NCBI GenBank assembly: GCA_001780035.1
Contig: MFEY01000007.1
Span: 395,146-431,540, forward strand
Direction of reading: 5' to 3'
DNA from: Candidatus Doudnabacteria bacterium RIFCSPHIGHO2_12_FULL_48_16
Lineage (GTDB): Bacteria; Patescibacteriota; Doudnabacteria; UBA920; O2-02-FULL-48-8
Length of the DNA stretch: 36,395 nt
Below the pieces are notes generated by a model. The model saw only the letters and a program-made list of their open reading frames with translations, made no database searches and was not told where the DNA came from. Positions within the stretch are counted from its first letter, which is position 1. Each line of letters starts with the position of its first letter. A program made the translations under genes and the position numbers. This document shows positions 8,911 through 19,507 of this stretch, one piece after another.

Positions 8911-9777
8911 ATGAAAAAAGTCCGAAAAGCTATAATCCCCGCGGCTGGTTTTGGCACCCGATTTTTACCCGCCACGAAAGCCCAACCTAAAGAAATGCTG
9001 CCGATTGTCGACAAGCCGGTGATTCAGTATGTCGTGGAACAAGCAGTCGCGGCCGGAATCGAGCAAATTATTATTGTAACCGGCTGGCATAAACGTGCGA
9101 TTGAAGATCATTTCGATCGGCATTTTGAATTGGAAGCGCATTTGGAAAAAGGAGGCAAAACTGTCGAGCTGGCTGAAATTCGCAAAATTTCCGAACTGGC
9201 AGATTTTGTGTATGTGAGGCAAAAGGAGCCATTGGGAAACGGCCACGCTGTGCTAATGGCTAAAGATGTGATTGGTGATGAGCCGTTTGTGGTGATGTGG
9301 GGCGATGAATTTTTTTATGGCCAACCTCCGGCGATCAAGCAGCTGATCGAAGCTTACGAACAATATAACAGTCCGGTGATTGCCGGCGTTCGGGTCGCAG
9401 AACAGGATGTCAGCCGATACGGCATCGCGGATGTGACTTTGGTTAAGGATAATGTTTATAAAATCAACCGAATCGTAGAAAAGCCGGAGGTGGGCCAGGC
9501 CCCGTCCAATTTAGCCACCCATGGCAACTATCTTTTAACGCCAGATATTTTTGAAATTTTAGAAACGATGCCGGCGAGCCGCGGTGAAATTTGGTTATCC
9601 GGAGCTATTGATCGCTTGATTCAAAAACGAGACGTCTATACGGTGGAACTGAAAAACAATATATATTATGATTGCGGCAGTAAGCTGAATTATTTAAAAG
9701 CCGTGGTAGATTTCGGCTTACAGCATGACGATTTACGCGCTAAGTTTGCTGAATATTTGAGAAACCTGAAAGTTTAA
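8911..9777 (+). CDS. galU: UTP-glucose-1-phosphate uridylyltransferase
   Basis: KAIIPAAGFGTRFLPATKAQPKEMLPIVDKPVIQYVVEQAV; IVEKPE; GNYLLTPDIFEIL. Confidence 0.95.
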   Translation: MKKVRKAIIPAAGFGTRFLPATKAQPKEMLPIVDKPVIQYVVEQAVAAGIEQIIIVTGWHKRAIEDHFDRHFELEAHLEKGGKTVELAEIRKISELADFVYVRQKEPLGNGHAVLMAKDVIGDEPFVVMWGDEFFYGQPPAIKQLIEAYEQYNSPVIAGVRVAEQDVSRYGIADVTLVKDNVYKINRIVEKPEVGQAPSNLATHGNYLLTPDIFEILETMPASRGEIWLSGAIDRLIQKRDVYTVELKNNIYYDCGSKLNYLKAVVDFGLQHDDLRAKFAEYLRNLKV

Positions 9778-9845
9778 AAATTATTGCGTTTGTGGTAGAA
9801 TAACGGGGCTTGTACTAAGCTTTAGAGAAACCAAACGAAACTAAA

Positions 9846-11171
9846 ATGGAAAAAAAGTATTATATTTTAGGCGGGATACTGGCGGTGCTTTTAATCATCG
9901 CCGGAATTTTATTTTTTTCCGCCGGATCAAAACCCACGCCGAATAACTCGGGCGGGAGTAATTCCGGCCAAACCCAGTTGACCTGGTGGAAAACTTTTGA
10001 AGACACACAAAACGTCCAGGATCTAATCAGCGATTATCAGACGGCTCATCAGAACGTCAGCATTACGTTCGTTAAAAAAAATGTGCAGACGTATGAGCAG
10101 GAGCTAGTGGATGCTCTGGCCTCAGGCCAAGGCCCGGACATCTTCAGCATCCATAACGACTGGCTGCCCAAGCATGCGGATAAAATCGGACCAATGCCGT
10201 CCGCTATGATGAGCATACGCACTTATAACAATAATTTTGTTGACGTCGCGTCCAGCGATTTTATCAAGGACGGCAAAGTTTACGCCGTTCCGCTTTCGGT
10301 CGACGTCTTAGCTCTTTATTACAACAAAGATCTGCTGAACTCGGCCGGCATTTCCACTCCGCCGACCACCTGGCCAGAACTGGTCAGCGATATTCAAAAA
10401 TTAACCAAAACCAGCAGCGGTGGATTTACCCGATCCGGCATTGCCATGGGGACGTCGACCAACGTTAATCGGGCCGTTGATATTTTGAGTTTGCTGATGC
10501 TGCAAAACGGCACGCAATTTTATTCGCAGGATCAGCAAGCCGCCACGTTTAATCAATCGATCACTGACCCTAAAAGCACCAGCGGCTCATTTAATCCCGG
10601 TTCAACCGCCCTGGCTTTTTATACCCAGTTCGCCAATCCGGCCAAAACTTCCTACACTTGGAATTCGCAGTCGGATTTCAGCCTTGATGCGTTTACGCAA
10701 GGCAAGGTCGCCATGATGATCAATTATTCATACATGGAACCGATGATCCGGGCCCGGGCGCCCAATTTAAATTGGGCTGTCGCGGCCATTCCCCAAGTGT
10801 CGGAAGACGCAATCAGAATTAACTTCGCCAATTATTGGGGTGAGACCGTTTCCAAATCTTCCAAACAGCAGGCCGCAGCTTGGGATTTTCTGAACTTCAT
10901 CACGCAAAAAGCGGAACTGACCAAATACTATGCCAAACACAAGCTCGTCTCTTCCCGCAAGGACATGCTGCCGGATCAGTATGCGGATACGGAAATCGGC
11001 GTGTTCGCCGAATCCGCTCCAAATGCCCGCAGCATTTACAAGCATGACGCCAATGTTTTTGAGGGCGTATTTACCAAAATGATTGACGATGTGGTTCTCC
11101 GCAGTTTCCCGCCGGATACGGCCATTAGTAACGCCGTGCAACAAATTAATCTGAATTTGCGACAGCCATAG
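9846..11171 (+). CDS. Extracellular solute-binding protein (sugar ABC type), N-terminally TM-anchored
   Basis: N-terminal TM; QTQLTWWKTFEDTQNVQDLISDYQ...GQGPDIFSIHNDW...VAMMINYSYMEP; no lipobox Cys seen. Confidence 0.85.
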   Translation: MEKKYYILGGILAVLLIIAGILFFSAGSKPTPNNSGGSNSGQTQLTWWKTFEDTQNVQDLISDYQTAHQNVSITFVKKNVQTYEQELVDALASGQGPDIFSIHNDWLPKHADKIGPMPSAMMSIRTYNNNFVDVASSDFIKDGKVYAVPLSVDVLALYYNKDLLNSAGISTPPTTWPELVSDIQKLTKTSSGGFTRSGIAMGTSTNVNRAVDILSLLMLQNGTQFYSQDQQAATFNQSITDPKSTSGSFNPGSTALAFYTQFANPAKTSYTWNSQSDFSLDAFTQGKVAMMINYSYMEPMIRARAPNLNWAVAAIPQVSEDAIRINFANYWGETVSKSSKQQAAAWDFLNFITQKAELTKYYAKHKLVSSRKDMLPDQYADTEIGVFAESAPNARSIYKHDANVFEGVFTKMIDDVVLRSFPPDTAISNAVQQINLNLRQP

Positions 11172-13767: not shown

Positions 13768-13813
13768 CAAAAAGAAAAAGGCGCGCGGGATCTGGTATCC
13801 ACGTCGCGCCCCT
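13768..13813 (-). terminator. Probable minus-strand terminator of the GC-rich module
   Basis: On the minus strand GGGCGCG...CGCGCGCC followed by TTTTTCTTTTT. Confidence 0.5.
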
Positions 13814-13871
13814 ATCTCTATTCTTCTTCGTCCTCCTAAGTTTTTTCTGTGACCCCGGCCCGCCCCCCGCG

Positions 13872-14510
13872 CTAGCTGATCGGCACGACCGCCTGATGCG
13901 GGTGGGCGTTGCAGGCGGCCACGGCCTGCGCGTCGCCCGGGAACTTCTCGAAGCCGTAACCCTGATTCCGGTTGCTGTTGCCGCCGAAATCCTGGTTATT
14001 GCTCTTGATGGGGCCCCAGATCGTGAACCCGTTGGTCCAGAGCTGAGCCTCGTAGTCGGCCGAGCAGACGGCGAACGTAAACCCCGTCTGCATCGGGCTG
14101 CTGCACTCCGCGCCGTGGCAGAGCCGGGCGATGAGTGCGCGGTAGTTGCCCGGGCCGTTGTCGCTGCGGCCGCCTTCCTGCGGATCTTGCAGCACGGTTT
14201 TTTTGTCTTTGTGTTCTCTGGGTAGGCCCGACGGATAGATCCCGTCGGCCCACGAACACTCAGACGTATTCGACCGGCTGCAGATTGTATCCGCCTGGTG
14301 GACGCGGACCAAGGTCGGCGCCTCGATGACGAAGTAGGTTCGCCAGGCGCTCTGGTCCGCGTAGACGATGCCCTCCGGTTCGACCGCCACCACTGGCACG
14401 AGCGACGTATGCCCGACCCAGTAGAGAACCAGCAGGAGCCCGACGATGTACAGGAACCGCAAGACGTTCTTGAGGTTCCACTTGCTCTTCTTGTCGGTTG
14501 TGCTGCTCAT
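13872..14510 (-). CDS. Unknown single-TM protein with Cys-rich ectodomain
   Basis: MSSTTDKKSKWNLKNVLRFLYIVGLLLVLYWVG TM anchor; GGAGAAGG upstream of ATG; pattern RALIARLCHGAEC...FTFAVCSADYEAQLWTNGFTIWG. Confidence 0.65.
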   Translation of the reverse strand: MSSTTDKKSKWNLKNVLRFLYIVGLLLVLYWVGHTSLVPVVAVEPEGIVYADQSAWRTYFVIEAPTLVRVHQADTICSRSNTSECSWADGIYPSGLPREHKDKKTVLQDPQEGGRSDNGPGNYRALIARLCHGAECSSPMQTGFTFAVCSADYEAQLWTNGFTIWGPIKSNNQDFGGNSNRNQGYGFEKFPGDAQAVAACNAHPHQAVVPIS

Positions 14511-14519
14511 TGCCTTCTC

Positions 14520-16121
14520 CTAATTATGATTGGGTTTGAACAGCAGCACGCCGACCCAGATGACGATCACGAACATGACGATCTGCGGGAACGTAATGTG
14601 CGTGATGTCGAAGCTCCACGAACTCAGCCCGGCCGCATTGACCTGGCCGATTCCGGGAGGCACGCAGCCCGACAGCTGATTGTGACAGGCTCGGTTCCAG
14701 TCCACAACCAAGCGCTTGAGCTGCCAGACGATGCCGACATACGGGCAGATCAGCACCAGGAGTGTTGCCCACACCGCGGCGGGTTTGCTCCAGTGCTGCC
14801 AGCTCTTCCACCAGCTGTGGCGCGCTACCGGCTCTCCGTCTTCGCCGGTTTCCGTCTTGTCGCCGTTGGTTGCGAACATCACGATGATGCCCGCCACCAC
14901 GGCCGGCAGAACCGGATACGGATAGTCGGTCAGCCCGGCGACGGCTTCGTAGATCATGAGCACGACCCAGAAGTAGCCGCAGAACGTCCCGAACCAGCGG
15001 AACCAGTCGAACTTCAGCTCGCGATGCGAGATCAGCCACTGGATTCCGAGGAGGAACACGAACGGCAGGAGCCCCAGGAACCACCAGATCGGAAAGACGA
15101 GCAGGAACAAAATCGCGTTCAGCTCGCAGTTCACAATGGTCCACAGGATGTCATACGCCTTCTTGATCGCCAGGAATTTCCACTTGAAGTCCGGGTCGAG
15201 GCCGAAGGACGTATCGGCCTCGCCGTCGGCGTTTCTCGTCCGATGCACGCGCACGCCGTCGCCGGCCAACCGGGCCAGATTCAGAGCCACATCTGCTTCG
15301 ACCAGCAGCGTCAGCGCGTTGAGTGCCGGCACGTCGCCGATCGGACCCAGATGCAGTCGCTGCCAGCCAGCCGCGGCCGCATTCCACCGCACCCGGACCA
15401 GGAACACCAGGCCGAGCAGGGGGAAGTAGAGGAGCGCGAGCGCGAAGATGAGGATCTTGCCCGGATACAGACCGGGGAACCGCAGCGTCGAGGCGGCGAG
15501 CGCCACCAGGAACACGGCGATCGAGATCAGCACCGTGGCACCCGCCATGTAGCCGAGATCTTCCGCCGCTTCCGCGTGCCAATCAGCGATCGGCGCCGCG
15601 TTGTTGGTGACAAGTCCCCACGCGGTTCGCAGGCCGTTTTTGACCTTGACGATCGCGTAATCCGACTCCTGCCGGAGGCAGAAGCGCTGCGAGGCGGCGT
15701 AGCGAGTCCGTCGCGCGTTGTCGGGGATCGAGGCGATGTGGATCAAGTGGATTCGCACCGCTTCTTCGCCTGCCGCGCGTTCGGCCGCTTCGAGACCGGC
15801 CGTCATTTCCCACCACGACTTGATGCAGTCTGCCAGTTGGTTGATGCCGAGCGACGGCAACCACTGCTCATTGAGGGCCTTGCGCACGCCCGCGGTCAGC
15901 TTGGCTGTGTTTCGGGCAAAGGCGGCTTCGTCGCGCTTCCGTTTCTGGAAGCTCGGCGCATGCGCCCGCCCGGCCGTGTCGAGAATGCCGGTTGTCGAGT
16001 CGGCGGTGCCGCGAACCGCGCGGTAGATCGAGATCCCCACGAATTCGCTGGCGATTTCCATCGCGAAGTGGAGGAGGAGTGAGAGCAAGCTCATCACTTT
16101 CCCCGGTTGCTGTGTGATCAT
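14520..16121 (-). CDS. Unknown polytopic membrane protein (533 aa)
   Basis: Multiple strongly hydrophobic segments (ATVLISIAVFLVALAAS, ILIFALALLYFPLLGLVFLVRV, LNAILFLLVFPIWWFLGLLPFVFLL, IVMFVIVIWVGVLLF); SD TAGGAG before ATG. Confidence 0.7.
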   Translation of the reverse strand: MITQQPGKVMSLLSLLLHFAMEIASEFVGISIYRAVRGTADSTTGILDTAGRAHAPSFQKRKRDEAAFARNTAKLTAGVRKALNEQWLPSLGINQLADCIKSWWEMTAGLEAAERAAGEEAVRIHLIHIASIPDNARRTRYAASQRFCLRQESDYAIVKVKNGLRTAWGLVTNNAAPIADWHAEAAEDLGYMAGATVLISIAVFLVALAASTLRFPGLYPGKILIFALALLYFPLLGLVFLVRVRWNAAAAGWQRLHLGPIGDVPALNALTLLVEADVALNLARLAGDGVRVHRTRNADGEADTSFGLDPDFKWKFLAIKKAYDILWTIVNCELNAILFLLVFPIWWFLGLLPFVFLLGIQWLISHRELKFDWFRWFGTFCGYFWVVLMIYEAVAGLTDYPYPVLPAVVAGIIVMFATNGDKTETGEDGEPVARHSWWKSWQHWSKPAAVWATLLVLICPYVGIVWQLKRLVVDWNRACHNQLSGCVPPGIGQVNAAGLSSWSFDITHITFPQIVMFVIVIWVGVLLFKPNHN

Positions 16122-16130
16122 TGTGCACTC

Positions 16131-16775
16131 CTATTTCGCGAATTGAGCGACGGCTTCCTGGCCGTTCTCGAGGATGAATCGGAACGTGGCGACGATCGGG
16201 GCGAACCGAACGAAGCCAGTCAGGATGCCGTTGGCCGGGGTTTCGAGCTGGCCCACGAGCGGAGTCTTGTTCTGATCGAGCAGCTGATAGTGATAGCCGT
16301 TCGTGCAGGTGGCCCGAAACCGTCGCCCTTTGTAGACGCCACCCTCGCGGGTGATGATGGTGACCGCAAAGTCACCGTCGGCGTCCGGATCCATCGAGGC
16401 TTCCGCCTCGATGTCCGGCGGTTTGTCCTTGGCGTCCGGTTTGTCTTTCTTCGCGACGACCGGCGCCAGACCGAACACATCCCACGGAATCTCGACCTCG
16501 TCATACTCCTTCGTTCCCGCCCGCTGGATCTTAACCTTGAAGGCTTTGGATCGATCGGGCTTGACCGAGTAGGTTTCCGTCACGTCATCGGTGGCATCGA
16601 TCATGCCGAGCGGCACGTCTTGCACGAAGACTTTGACGGGGATGGGCGTGGCCGGGTTGTCGTGGTTGTGCCTGATCTTCACCGGGATATCGAACTTATC
16701 AGCCGCAGTGGCTGACGGGTTGATCGCCCTGGCGTCGACAGACACGCTGATTTTCAGATCGTGAACTTTCGCCAT
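16131..16775 (-). CDS. Unknown soluble beta-rich protein, first gene of GC-rich module
   Basis: MAKVHDLKISVSVDARAINPSATAADKFDIPVKIRHNHDNPATPIPVKV...; GGGAGGAG SD before ATG at 16775. Confidence 0.65.
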   Translation of the reverse strand: MAKVHDLKISVSVDARAINPSATAADKFDIPVKIRHNHDNPATPIPVKVFVQDVPLGMIDATDDVTETYSVKPDRSKAFKVKIQRAGTKEYDEVEIPWDVFGLAPVVAKKDKPDAKDKPPDIEAEASMDPDADGDFAVTIITREGGVYKGRRFRATCTNGYHYQLLDQNKTPLVGQLETPANGILTGFVRFAPIVATFRFILENGQEAVAQFAK

Positions 16776-16945
16776 CTGCTCTCCTCCCAAACTGGCCGCG
16801 CGTAGCGCGGGAAACCGAAACCTAACCTCAACTAAACTTGAGACACTGAAACAAAATCCTAATTCGGATGTAAAAGTGCGGATCCCGCAAAAGCGGGATG
16901 CCATCAGGTTCTATCCGGGAGGATAGGGCGTCATGATGACCTGAT

Positions 16946-16974
16946 ATATTAGCACTTTTTGGCGATTTTGTCAA
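16946..16974 (-). promoter_or_regulatory. Consensus sigma70 promoter for the GC-rich minus-strand module
   Basis: Minus strand TTGACA (16974-16969), 17-nt spacer, TAATAT (16951-16946). Confidence 0.8.
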
Positions 16975-17450: not shown

Positions 17451-17537
17451 GCCGACGTGGCGAAATTGGCAAACGCACTGGGTTTAGGACCCAGCGCTCG
17501 AAAGAGCTTGTCGGTTCAAGTCCGACCGTCGGCACCA
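17451..17537 (+). tRNA. tRNA-Leu(UAG)
   Basis: Type II cloverleaf: GCCGACG/CGTCGGC, CTGGG-TTTAGGA-CCCAG, long variable arm, TCGGT TCAAGTC CGACC-type T arm, CCA. Confidence 0.95.
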
Positions 17538-17620: not shown

Positions 17621-19507
17621 ATGAATAGATTTATTCGCAACTTATTGATTATTTTGGGCATCTTCCTCGTCGTGGCCGGAATTTTTTCCTTTGTGGGCAC
17701 GGACAGCAAATCCACGACGAACGTTTCGGTTTCCGTCATCGCCGAGGAAGTCAATTCCAATCAAGTCGATCGGATCGAAGTGTCCGAAGACGAACTGACC
17801 GTGCACCTCAAAGATGGCAGCGTCCAAACTTCAAATAAAGAACATGAGATTGCCCTGTCCGAAACTTTGAAAAATTACGGCGTGGACCAAGCCAAGCTCA
17901 AAGACATTAAGATTGAAGTCAAGGGCAGCTCATCCTCTTCATTTATTTTTTCCACACTCCTGCCGTTTATTCTGCCTTTCCTTTTGATCGCGGGCTTTAT
18001 CTGGTTTTTGATGCGGCAAGTTTCAGGCTCGAACAACCGGGCCATGTCGTTTGGCCAATCCGGCGCTAAATTGATGGATGAATCCGATCGCAAGCGCCGG
18101 GTGACATTTGCGGATGTCGCTGGCATCCGGGAAGCGAAAGAAGAATTGAAAGAGATTGTGGAATTTTTGCGCTTTCCACAAAAGTTTTTTTCACTCGGGG
18201 CCAAAATCCCCAGGGGCGTGCTGTTGCTGGGCCCGCCGGGGGTGGGCAAGACTTTGGTGGCCCGCGCCGTGGCCGGCGAAGCCAACGTGCCGTTTTTTCA
18301 TATTTCGGGATCGGAATTCGTGGAAATGTTCGTCGGCGTCGGGGCATCCCGCGTGCGCGATTTGTTTAAAAAAGCCAAACGAAATTCCCCCTGCATTGTG
18401 TTTATCGATGAAATCGACGCCGTCGGCCGCCAGCGGGGCGCGGGCTTGGGCGGTTCTCACGACGAGCGTGAGCAGACCCTCAATCAAATTTTGGTGGAAA
18501 TGGACGGATTCGAATCCGATAGCAACGTTATCGTAGTTGCCGCCACCAACCGGCCGGACGTGCTGGATCCGGCGCTGTTGCGGCCTGGGCGGTTTGACCG
18601 CCAGGTCGTGCTCGATTTGCCAGACATCAGAGACCGCGAACAGATCCTCCAAGTGCACACTAAATCCAAACCCCTGGCCAAAAACGTCAATTTGCGCGCG
18701 TTGGCCGAGCGGACCCCGGGTTTTTCGGGCGCTGATTTGGCCAACCTGATGAACGAAGGCGCCATTCTGGCCGCCCGCAAAAATCTGAAGGAAGTTGGAC
18801 AGGATGAACTTTTGACCGCGATTGAAAAAGTTATGCTGGGCCCGGAGCGCAAAAGCCACCTCTTGAGCACGCGGGAAAAGGAAATTGCCGCCTGGCATGA
18901 GGCCGGCCACGCATTGGTCGCTACCGTCCTTAAGGAAGCGGATCCGGTGCATAAGGTTTCCATCGTCTCTCGCGGCCGTGCCGCCGGCTACACCATGAAG
19001 TTGCCGATTGAAGACAAAAATTTGCATTCTAAATCGGAATTTTTGGCCGATTTGGCCGTATCCTTGGGCGGCTACGCCACCGAAAAAATAATTTTCAACG
19101 AATTAACCACCGGCGCTTCCAATGATCTGAAAGTCGCCACGAATCTGGCCCGCAAACTGGTTACCGCTTACGGTATGTCCGAGACCTTGGGCCCGATGAC
19201 GTTTGGCGAAAGCCATGACATGATTTTCTTGGGTCGGGAAATTTCCGAACATAAGAATTATTCGGAAAAAGTCGCTGCCAAAATTGACGAGGAAGTCTCC
19301 GGATTCATTGAAAGGGCGTTCAAGACCGCCAGTGACGTTCTGAAAAAATACCGCAAGCATTTGCGGCTGGTGGCGCTGAAATTGATTGAAAAAGAAACTT
19401 TGGAGCGGGACGAATTTGAAGCGCTGGTGGCGGACATCATTCCGGAGCACAAATTGGCCAAAAATGTTCTGACCCCGCAGGTGGCGGATTTACCCGCAGC
19501 CGTTTAA
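17621..19507 (+). CDS. ftsH: ATP-dependent zinc metalloprotease FtsH
   Basis: [68 protein letters not shown]. Confidence 0.97.

Follow-up and report, generated by a model that had tools for sequence, protein, structure and literature searches.

Three GC-rich minus-strand genes in a genome of Candidatus Doudnabacteria are quite plausibly this genome's version of an accessory operon specific to the lineage (A-B-C, usually followed by D), which occupies a fixed site in these bacteria and makes a complex of the cell envelope. The genes lie within a 36,395-nucleotide stretch of contig MFEY01000007.1 (hereafter the window), in a genome, G000, of 925 kb in 9 contigs. A GC-rich minus-strand operon occupies this site, which lies between a T4SS-pilin array and tRNA-Leu/ftsH, in every one of the 12 informative genomes of the GTDB family. 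Members of the CPR are believed to live on other cells or at their expense, but not many of the structures by which they make contact have been described; a fixed, fast-diverging operon of membrane and secreted proteins that is present or absent at a clean site provides a list of candidate surface genes for one lineage.

Genes of the window operon and their surroundings

The window contains three minus-strand ORFs, P0001, P0002 and P0003, each preceded by a good Shine-Dalgarno sequence (SD). P0001 (16131-16775) occupies the position of gene A in the relatives and encodes a soluble, β-rich protein of 214 aa. P0002 (14520-16121; gene B1-B2) encodes 533 aa, with a soluble N-terminal region followed by hydrophobic segments, 7 predicted overall according to the simple hydropathy scan that was used for the TM segments of all operon proteins. 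The product of P0003 (13872-14510; gene C) comprises 212 aa, with a single TM segment followed by a Cys-containing ectodomain. Codon-position GC identifies P0002 (0.61/0.44/0.84) and P0003 (0.56/0.46/0.86) as coding, as it does a longer ORF in the gene A frame (16131-16904; 0.59/0.42/0.73), whereas the plus-strand ORF at 14298-16082 (594 aa; 0.85/0.43/0.61) is an apparent shadow of the minus-strand genes. These data bear out an earlier note on this DNA, which had described a unit of three ORFs, each with a good SD, opposite in strand to its neighbours. The length of about 214 aa that it gave for the first product agrees with the strong SD at that start (GGGAGGAG, 16781-16788, minus strand, read from the sequence), although an in-frame upstream ATG would allow 257 aa. 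The terminator that it had reported can be read by eye as a probable intrinsic terminator (GGCGCG...CGCGCC-TTTTTC, 13810-13775, minus strand), but is absent from the results of a scan limited to 8-nt loops.

On the left, the site is bordered by a conserved plus-strand array of T4SS_pilin genes (PF18895; 11265-13574), four paralogues that adjoin an extracellular solute-binding protein gene (9846-11171). To the right lie a plus-strand gene for a 23S rRNA-intervening sequence protein (PF05635; 17032-17409), the conserved border tRNA-Leu (TAG; 17451-17537, plus strand) and ftsH (17621-19507). The PF05635 gene stands alone beside tRNA-Leu, outside any rRNA, and has a close homologue at the same place in G008. 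As a separate observation, the 16S rRNA genes of the family seem to be interrupted by large insertions, with 16S spans of up to 3.1 kb; examples are G000:C1:14-4074, where the matches are split into several pieces, G001:C11:1887-5013 (L207) and G004:C9:22268-24233 (L206). The CPR-like character that the earlier note had ascribed to the flanking genes fits the genome, which belongs to the CPR. It had also recognised no family among the three products, and P0001-P0003 indeed gave no match in Pfam, PHROGs, NCBIfam, PADLOC or PDB sequences. In the literature searched, whose coverage was partial, the operon is not described.

A fixed site within Doudnabacteria

The arrangement of pilin array, tRNA-Leu and ftsH is syntenic widely across the order. 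The window operon lies between the array and tRNA-Leu(TAG)/ftsH, minus relative to both, as do the operons of the family as a whole, counted over 12 genomes of which one (G002) has its interval cut by a contig end. Minus-strand genes fill an interval of 2.4-11.7 kb in each of the 12 family genomes and at 5 loci that do not belong to the family. A further 18 Doudnabacteria loci have an effectively empty site, with an interval of 62-370 bp and an intact pilin array, and in 2 more the interval is about 0.8 kb and holds one short gene. These loci come from two collections that overlap, some loci being the same contigs, and gene starts in the relatives were chosen from codon statistics and SDs.

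Profile searches with C matched 10 of the 14 family genomes and none in the rest of the order at E <= 1e-3; L090, a Doudnabacteria locus outside the set from which the C profile was built, has a C homologue at E 7e-5. Against 379 genomes of the phylum, the C profile retrieved the family, one weak TM/coil match (G036) and nothing more. Within the order, D occurs in the family only. Scans for close relatives of P0002 in genome contigs, viral contigs, phages and plasmids returned no match, and a phylum search with the concatenated proteins yielded merely 3 marginal matches (E 0.002-0.009). One of these, L003, was rejected as a long TM protein that reads as glycosyltransferase-like. Genome, viral, phage, plasmid and phylum searches thus revealed no relative of the operon outside Doudnabacteria, to which the system appears restricted as far as sequence can see.

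At the island edge in G012, G004 and G013, the opposite strand carries a related-looking GC-rich gene of 467-537 aa that has a THxxxHxDE-like motif (L026 13971-15374, L027 10833-12446 and L032 14329-15843, with ftsH read on the plus strand). The G012 copy has no Pfam match.

Operon layout and homology of the products

Loci read frame by frame show a recurrent order within the family: A, B1 (helical), B2 (polytopic), C (single-TM) and D (secreted). Gene A of the relatives encodes a soluble, β-rich protein whose N-terminus is often cold-shock-like or basic and RG/K-rich. The cold-shock-like domain gives weak Pfam matches in G008 and G001 and is visible by eye in G006, G011, G123 and G326; the basic tail is found in G012, G004, G003, G013, L085 and L090. 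Gene A of the window has neither. Where most relatives have separate genes B1 and B2, the window has the single 533-aa gene, so that the two are apparently fused in P0002. The D protein of the relatives is secreted, with a weak STN match and a Tyr/Gly-rich middle. In the other family genomes that include the left border the site has a readable D gene, whereas the window operon lacks it (none in G000 at E <= 1e-3). The three-gene module of the earlier note therefore recurs as an operon of the same layout, with the qualification that P0002 corresponds to two genes elsewhere and that D is missing here.

Homology across genera is proven by jackknifed sequence profiles for two of the genes. For C, 9 of 11 members score far above shuffles; P0003 reaches 70.8 bits against 7.8 for the best shuffle, and it is 44% identical to a G008 protein over 168 columns. 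All ten members of D are supported. The corresponding profiles of A, B1 and B2 give partial signal among the relatives, and the window copies are not significant; the assignment of window A and B accordingly rests on order, strand, site and topology. Co-conservation, which the earlier note had proposed as a check, is thus seen by sequence for the third gene, but the first and second escape detection. Neighbouring genes appear to be fused in three genomes: B1 with B2 in the window, A with TM segments in G003, and B2 with C in G009, where the C profile scores 9.6 bits against 1.1 for the best shuffle. These apparent fusions count as suggestive evidence for a complex.

Compared with solved-structure sequences, the C and D profiles gave matches at chance level only. 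The C-terminal pattern of the C relatives (ALIGR...PFxIG...G.L...VN...NTGGY) resembles what we take to be the LecA-type galactose-binding β-sandwich, PF07828. Neither the C profile nor the C sequence matched PF07828, and no PDB lectin chain was found at E up to 10; a LecA-like identity failed every sequence test and is kept merely as a lead.

Promoter and structured leader

The promoter TTGACA-N17-TAATAT reported by the earlier note was recovered by a sequence scan at 16974-16946 (minus strand; TGCTAATAT), with an extended -10 TG. The same promoter type (TTGACA...TGCTAnnAT) stands before gene A at 3 sister loci and at almost every family locus examined, and across 14 genomes the class has about 80 matches against 1 for the reversed pattern. 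It recurs at two further loci (L172, pos 581, and L173, pos 599; G000:C7:70080 and 79598), one of which is identical over 29 bases; the two share with each other the transcript start ATATAGTTCGTAGC and lead into GC-rich phosphoglycerate-mutase-like genes. In several genera the class also stands before a conserved secreted-protein gene (L174, L180, L181 and L183), whose leaders carry a boxA-like GCTCTTT/GTTCTTTA and look like a shared regulatory leader.

Between promoter and gene A lies a 5' leader of 165 nt (16776-16940, minus strand), which folds with an MFE of -68.2 kcal/mol (z -5.4, 0/200 shuffles) and substantiates the structured leader described previously. Orthologous leaders of 94-271 nt likewise form structures much more stable than those of dinucleotide shuffles (combined p about 1e-11), and the structured leader is conserved. 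One hairpin of the window leader (CUAUCCUCCCGGAUAG, 16911-16926, minus strand) contains the anti-SD CCUCCC, which pairs with the SD of A in the MFE structure; a second one is ATCCCGC-TTTT-GCGGGAT (16882-16899, minus strand). The pairing probability between the SD and the 5' leader is 1.00 in the window against 0.38 in shuffles (p 0.01). Across the family the combined p for SD sequestration is 0.04, with a strong signal limited to G000 and G012, and sequestration was rejected as a family-wide rule. An Rfam search of the leader gave no match.

The window leader also includes a putative boxA-like element (GCACTTTTACAT, 16868-16879, minus strand), which matches 9 of the 12 positions of GCTCTTTAACAA (p 0.01), the sequence that we take to be the E. 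coli boxA consensus and used for scoring. Scored in the same way over 12 orthologous leaders, the motif has a combined p of 1.7e-9. The family's rrn leaders show no clear boxA equivalent. The leader may act through Nus factors or through occlusion of the SD; for a Nus role we go no further than to infer it, because the window copy matches at 9/12 and the rrn leaders have no clear boxA. The promoter and leader shared across the family make this regulation testable by reporter.

Rapid divergence and a possible envelope complex

Within the family, the mean pairwise identity of A, B1, B2, C and D is about 0.20, compared with 0.79 for FtsH and 0.60 for the neighbouring solute-binding protein (SBP); promoter and folded leader have persisted through this divergence of the proteins. 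Distances between C proteins correlate with those of SBP (r 0.53, p 0.0004) and FtsH (r 0.30, p 0.03). Together with the fixed site, this points to an operon that has long been resident and has changed rapidly, not to one that arrived recently. The outward-facing parts and the low identity of these proteins relative to FtsH (about 20% versus about 79%) suggest diversifying selection at the cell surface, imposed perhaps by host cells, rivals or phages; low constraint would also give fast divergence.

From the layout, the apparent fusions and the rate of change, we infer an envelope complex that faces a changing partner. The operon would be transcribed as a unit from a strong promoter of the extended -10 type, and a folded leader able to hide the SD of gene A would adjust its expression. 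The A product would serve as a cytoplasmic adaptor of nucleic-acid-binding type, as the cold-shock-like or basic N-termini and β domains of the relatives suggest. B would span the membrane and dock A to it, C would display its β-rich ectodomain outside, and D, where present, would be secreted. In its most specific form, an undescribed complex confined to Doudnabacteria in which an RNA/DNA-binding adaptor, a membrane protein and an ectodomain are joined and the conserved folded leader controls translation or antitermination, the proposal is tentative. Judged by sequence, several features count against a single system: window A and B are not detectably homologous to those of the relatives, window A has no CSD or basic tail, and D is absent. 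Because homology of A and B went undetected, the statement that all loci carry the same system is based on gene C, order, site and strand. If the proposal is true, the operon would be a candidate for the way in which these ultrasmall bacteria make contact with hosts, rivals or phages, or pass nucleic acids through their envelope.

Defence and pilus functions as alternatives

The operon could instead form a conflict or defence island of fast-changing anti-phage or stress systems, in which A binds foreign or damaged RNA or DNA and the membrane proteins act as effectors. We consider this unlikely, though the strongest of the alternatives. It draws on the presence or absence of the operon at one site, on the CSD/OB-type match in A, for which one weak match is S1CSD-TOTE-2, and on TerY-P-type genes that precede the core operon on the same strand in G001 and G011. 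Both genomes have a Zn-ribbon Ser/Thr kinase and a vWA protein there, and by reading the G001 cassette also has PP2C-like and FHA-like proteins; in G001 (L024 8352-13113, with ftsH on the plus strand) Zn-ribbon kinase, FHA-like, vWA and PP2C-like genes stand in a row before the core operon. TerY-P triads are known to accompany restriction and stress systems (PMC11090510, PMC4978471), and the upstream genes of G001 and G011 keep a defence or stress role open. However, such genes occur in 2 of the 12 genomes only, the window proteins have no PADLOC match, no nuclease, helicase or NTPase was recognised in the core operon, and C follows the host phylogeny, unlike typical defence genes.

Less probable still is an accessory function in the adjacent T4SS-like pilus, in which B would act as a channel like VirB6 and C as a bitopic protein like VirB8. 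The pilin array adjoins the operon at every locus, and a polytopic and bitopic pair recalls inner-membrane T4SS subunits in topology. Yet neither VirB6 nor VirB8 gave a Pfam family match, the operon is on the opposite strand from the pilins, and the array is intact in the 18 loci without an operon; since the pilins persist there, they do not need it.

Base composition and origin

The operon has a GC content of about 0.62-0.64 against 0.46-0.49 in its surroundings, and its GC3 of 0.73-0.86 places it in the top few per cent of the 431-kb contig (mean 0.555, sd 0.11). The difference in base composition from the flanks that the earlier note had pointed out therefore holds, also against the contig. 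Its hint that base composition marks a foreign origin is not supported. A recently acquired foreign island would account for the GC3 and has a tRNA gene adjacent to it, but in 12 of 12 family genomes this site has a GC-rich operon on the same strand, with interval GC exceeding flank GC by 0.064 to 0.137, and no relative was found outside Doudnabacteria. No recombinase-like gene was recognised in the unit, no long flanking repeats were seen, and the operon lies 5' of the tRNA. As every family member shows the GC excess and C distances follow those of SBP and FtsH, we regard recent acquisition as highly improbable. An abrupt GC shift in a CPR genome is not necessarily a sign of recent gene transfer. 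Loci outside the family show less interval GC excess or none (-0.002 to +0.076), and island GC shows no correlation with flank GC (r 0.22, n 16).

Of the 449 genes called on contig C7 of G000, about 16 stand out as GC-rich (GC3 > 0.72), in a genome of 49% GC; most are isolated and several are secreted or unknown (for example 272519-273355, 79749-80369 and 9711-10088). Among the contig genes, the TTGACA-TGnTA promoter precedes 2 of the 16 GC-rich genes and 10 of the other 433 (p 0.06), and we claim no association. These isolated genes, and the undetected homology of window A and B, would suit a chance gathering of unrelated GC-rich orphan genes at a permissive site with no functional system, the least probable reading of all, given that C and D are proven families and that order, strand, promoter and leader are shared.

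Comparison with known systems

The operon partly resembles several known systems. As in the VirB6/VirB8 arrangement, a polytopic protein and a bitopic ectodomain protein are encoded next to VirB2-like pilins; unlike it, the operon has no family match, runs on the opposite strand and is dispensed with in loci that retain the pilins. The CoCoNuT-associated TerY-P triad (STK, PP2C and vWA) is absent from the window operon and is present in full or in part upstream in G001 and G011, and CSD and Ig-like domains are found in either context, whereas the core A-B-C-D has no recognised kinase, phosphatase, vWA, GTPase or nuclease.

Control by boxA ahead of non-rRNA genes is known (PMC5725501). The operon differs from boxA/Nus-factor leaders, such as those of rrn and the suhB 5' UTR, in the 9/12 match of the window copy and in the rrn leaders of its own family, which show no clear boxA; it resembles them in its structured leader with a putative boxA-like motif before the start codon.
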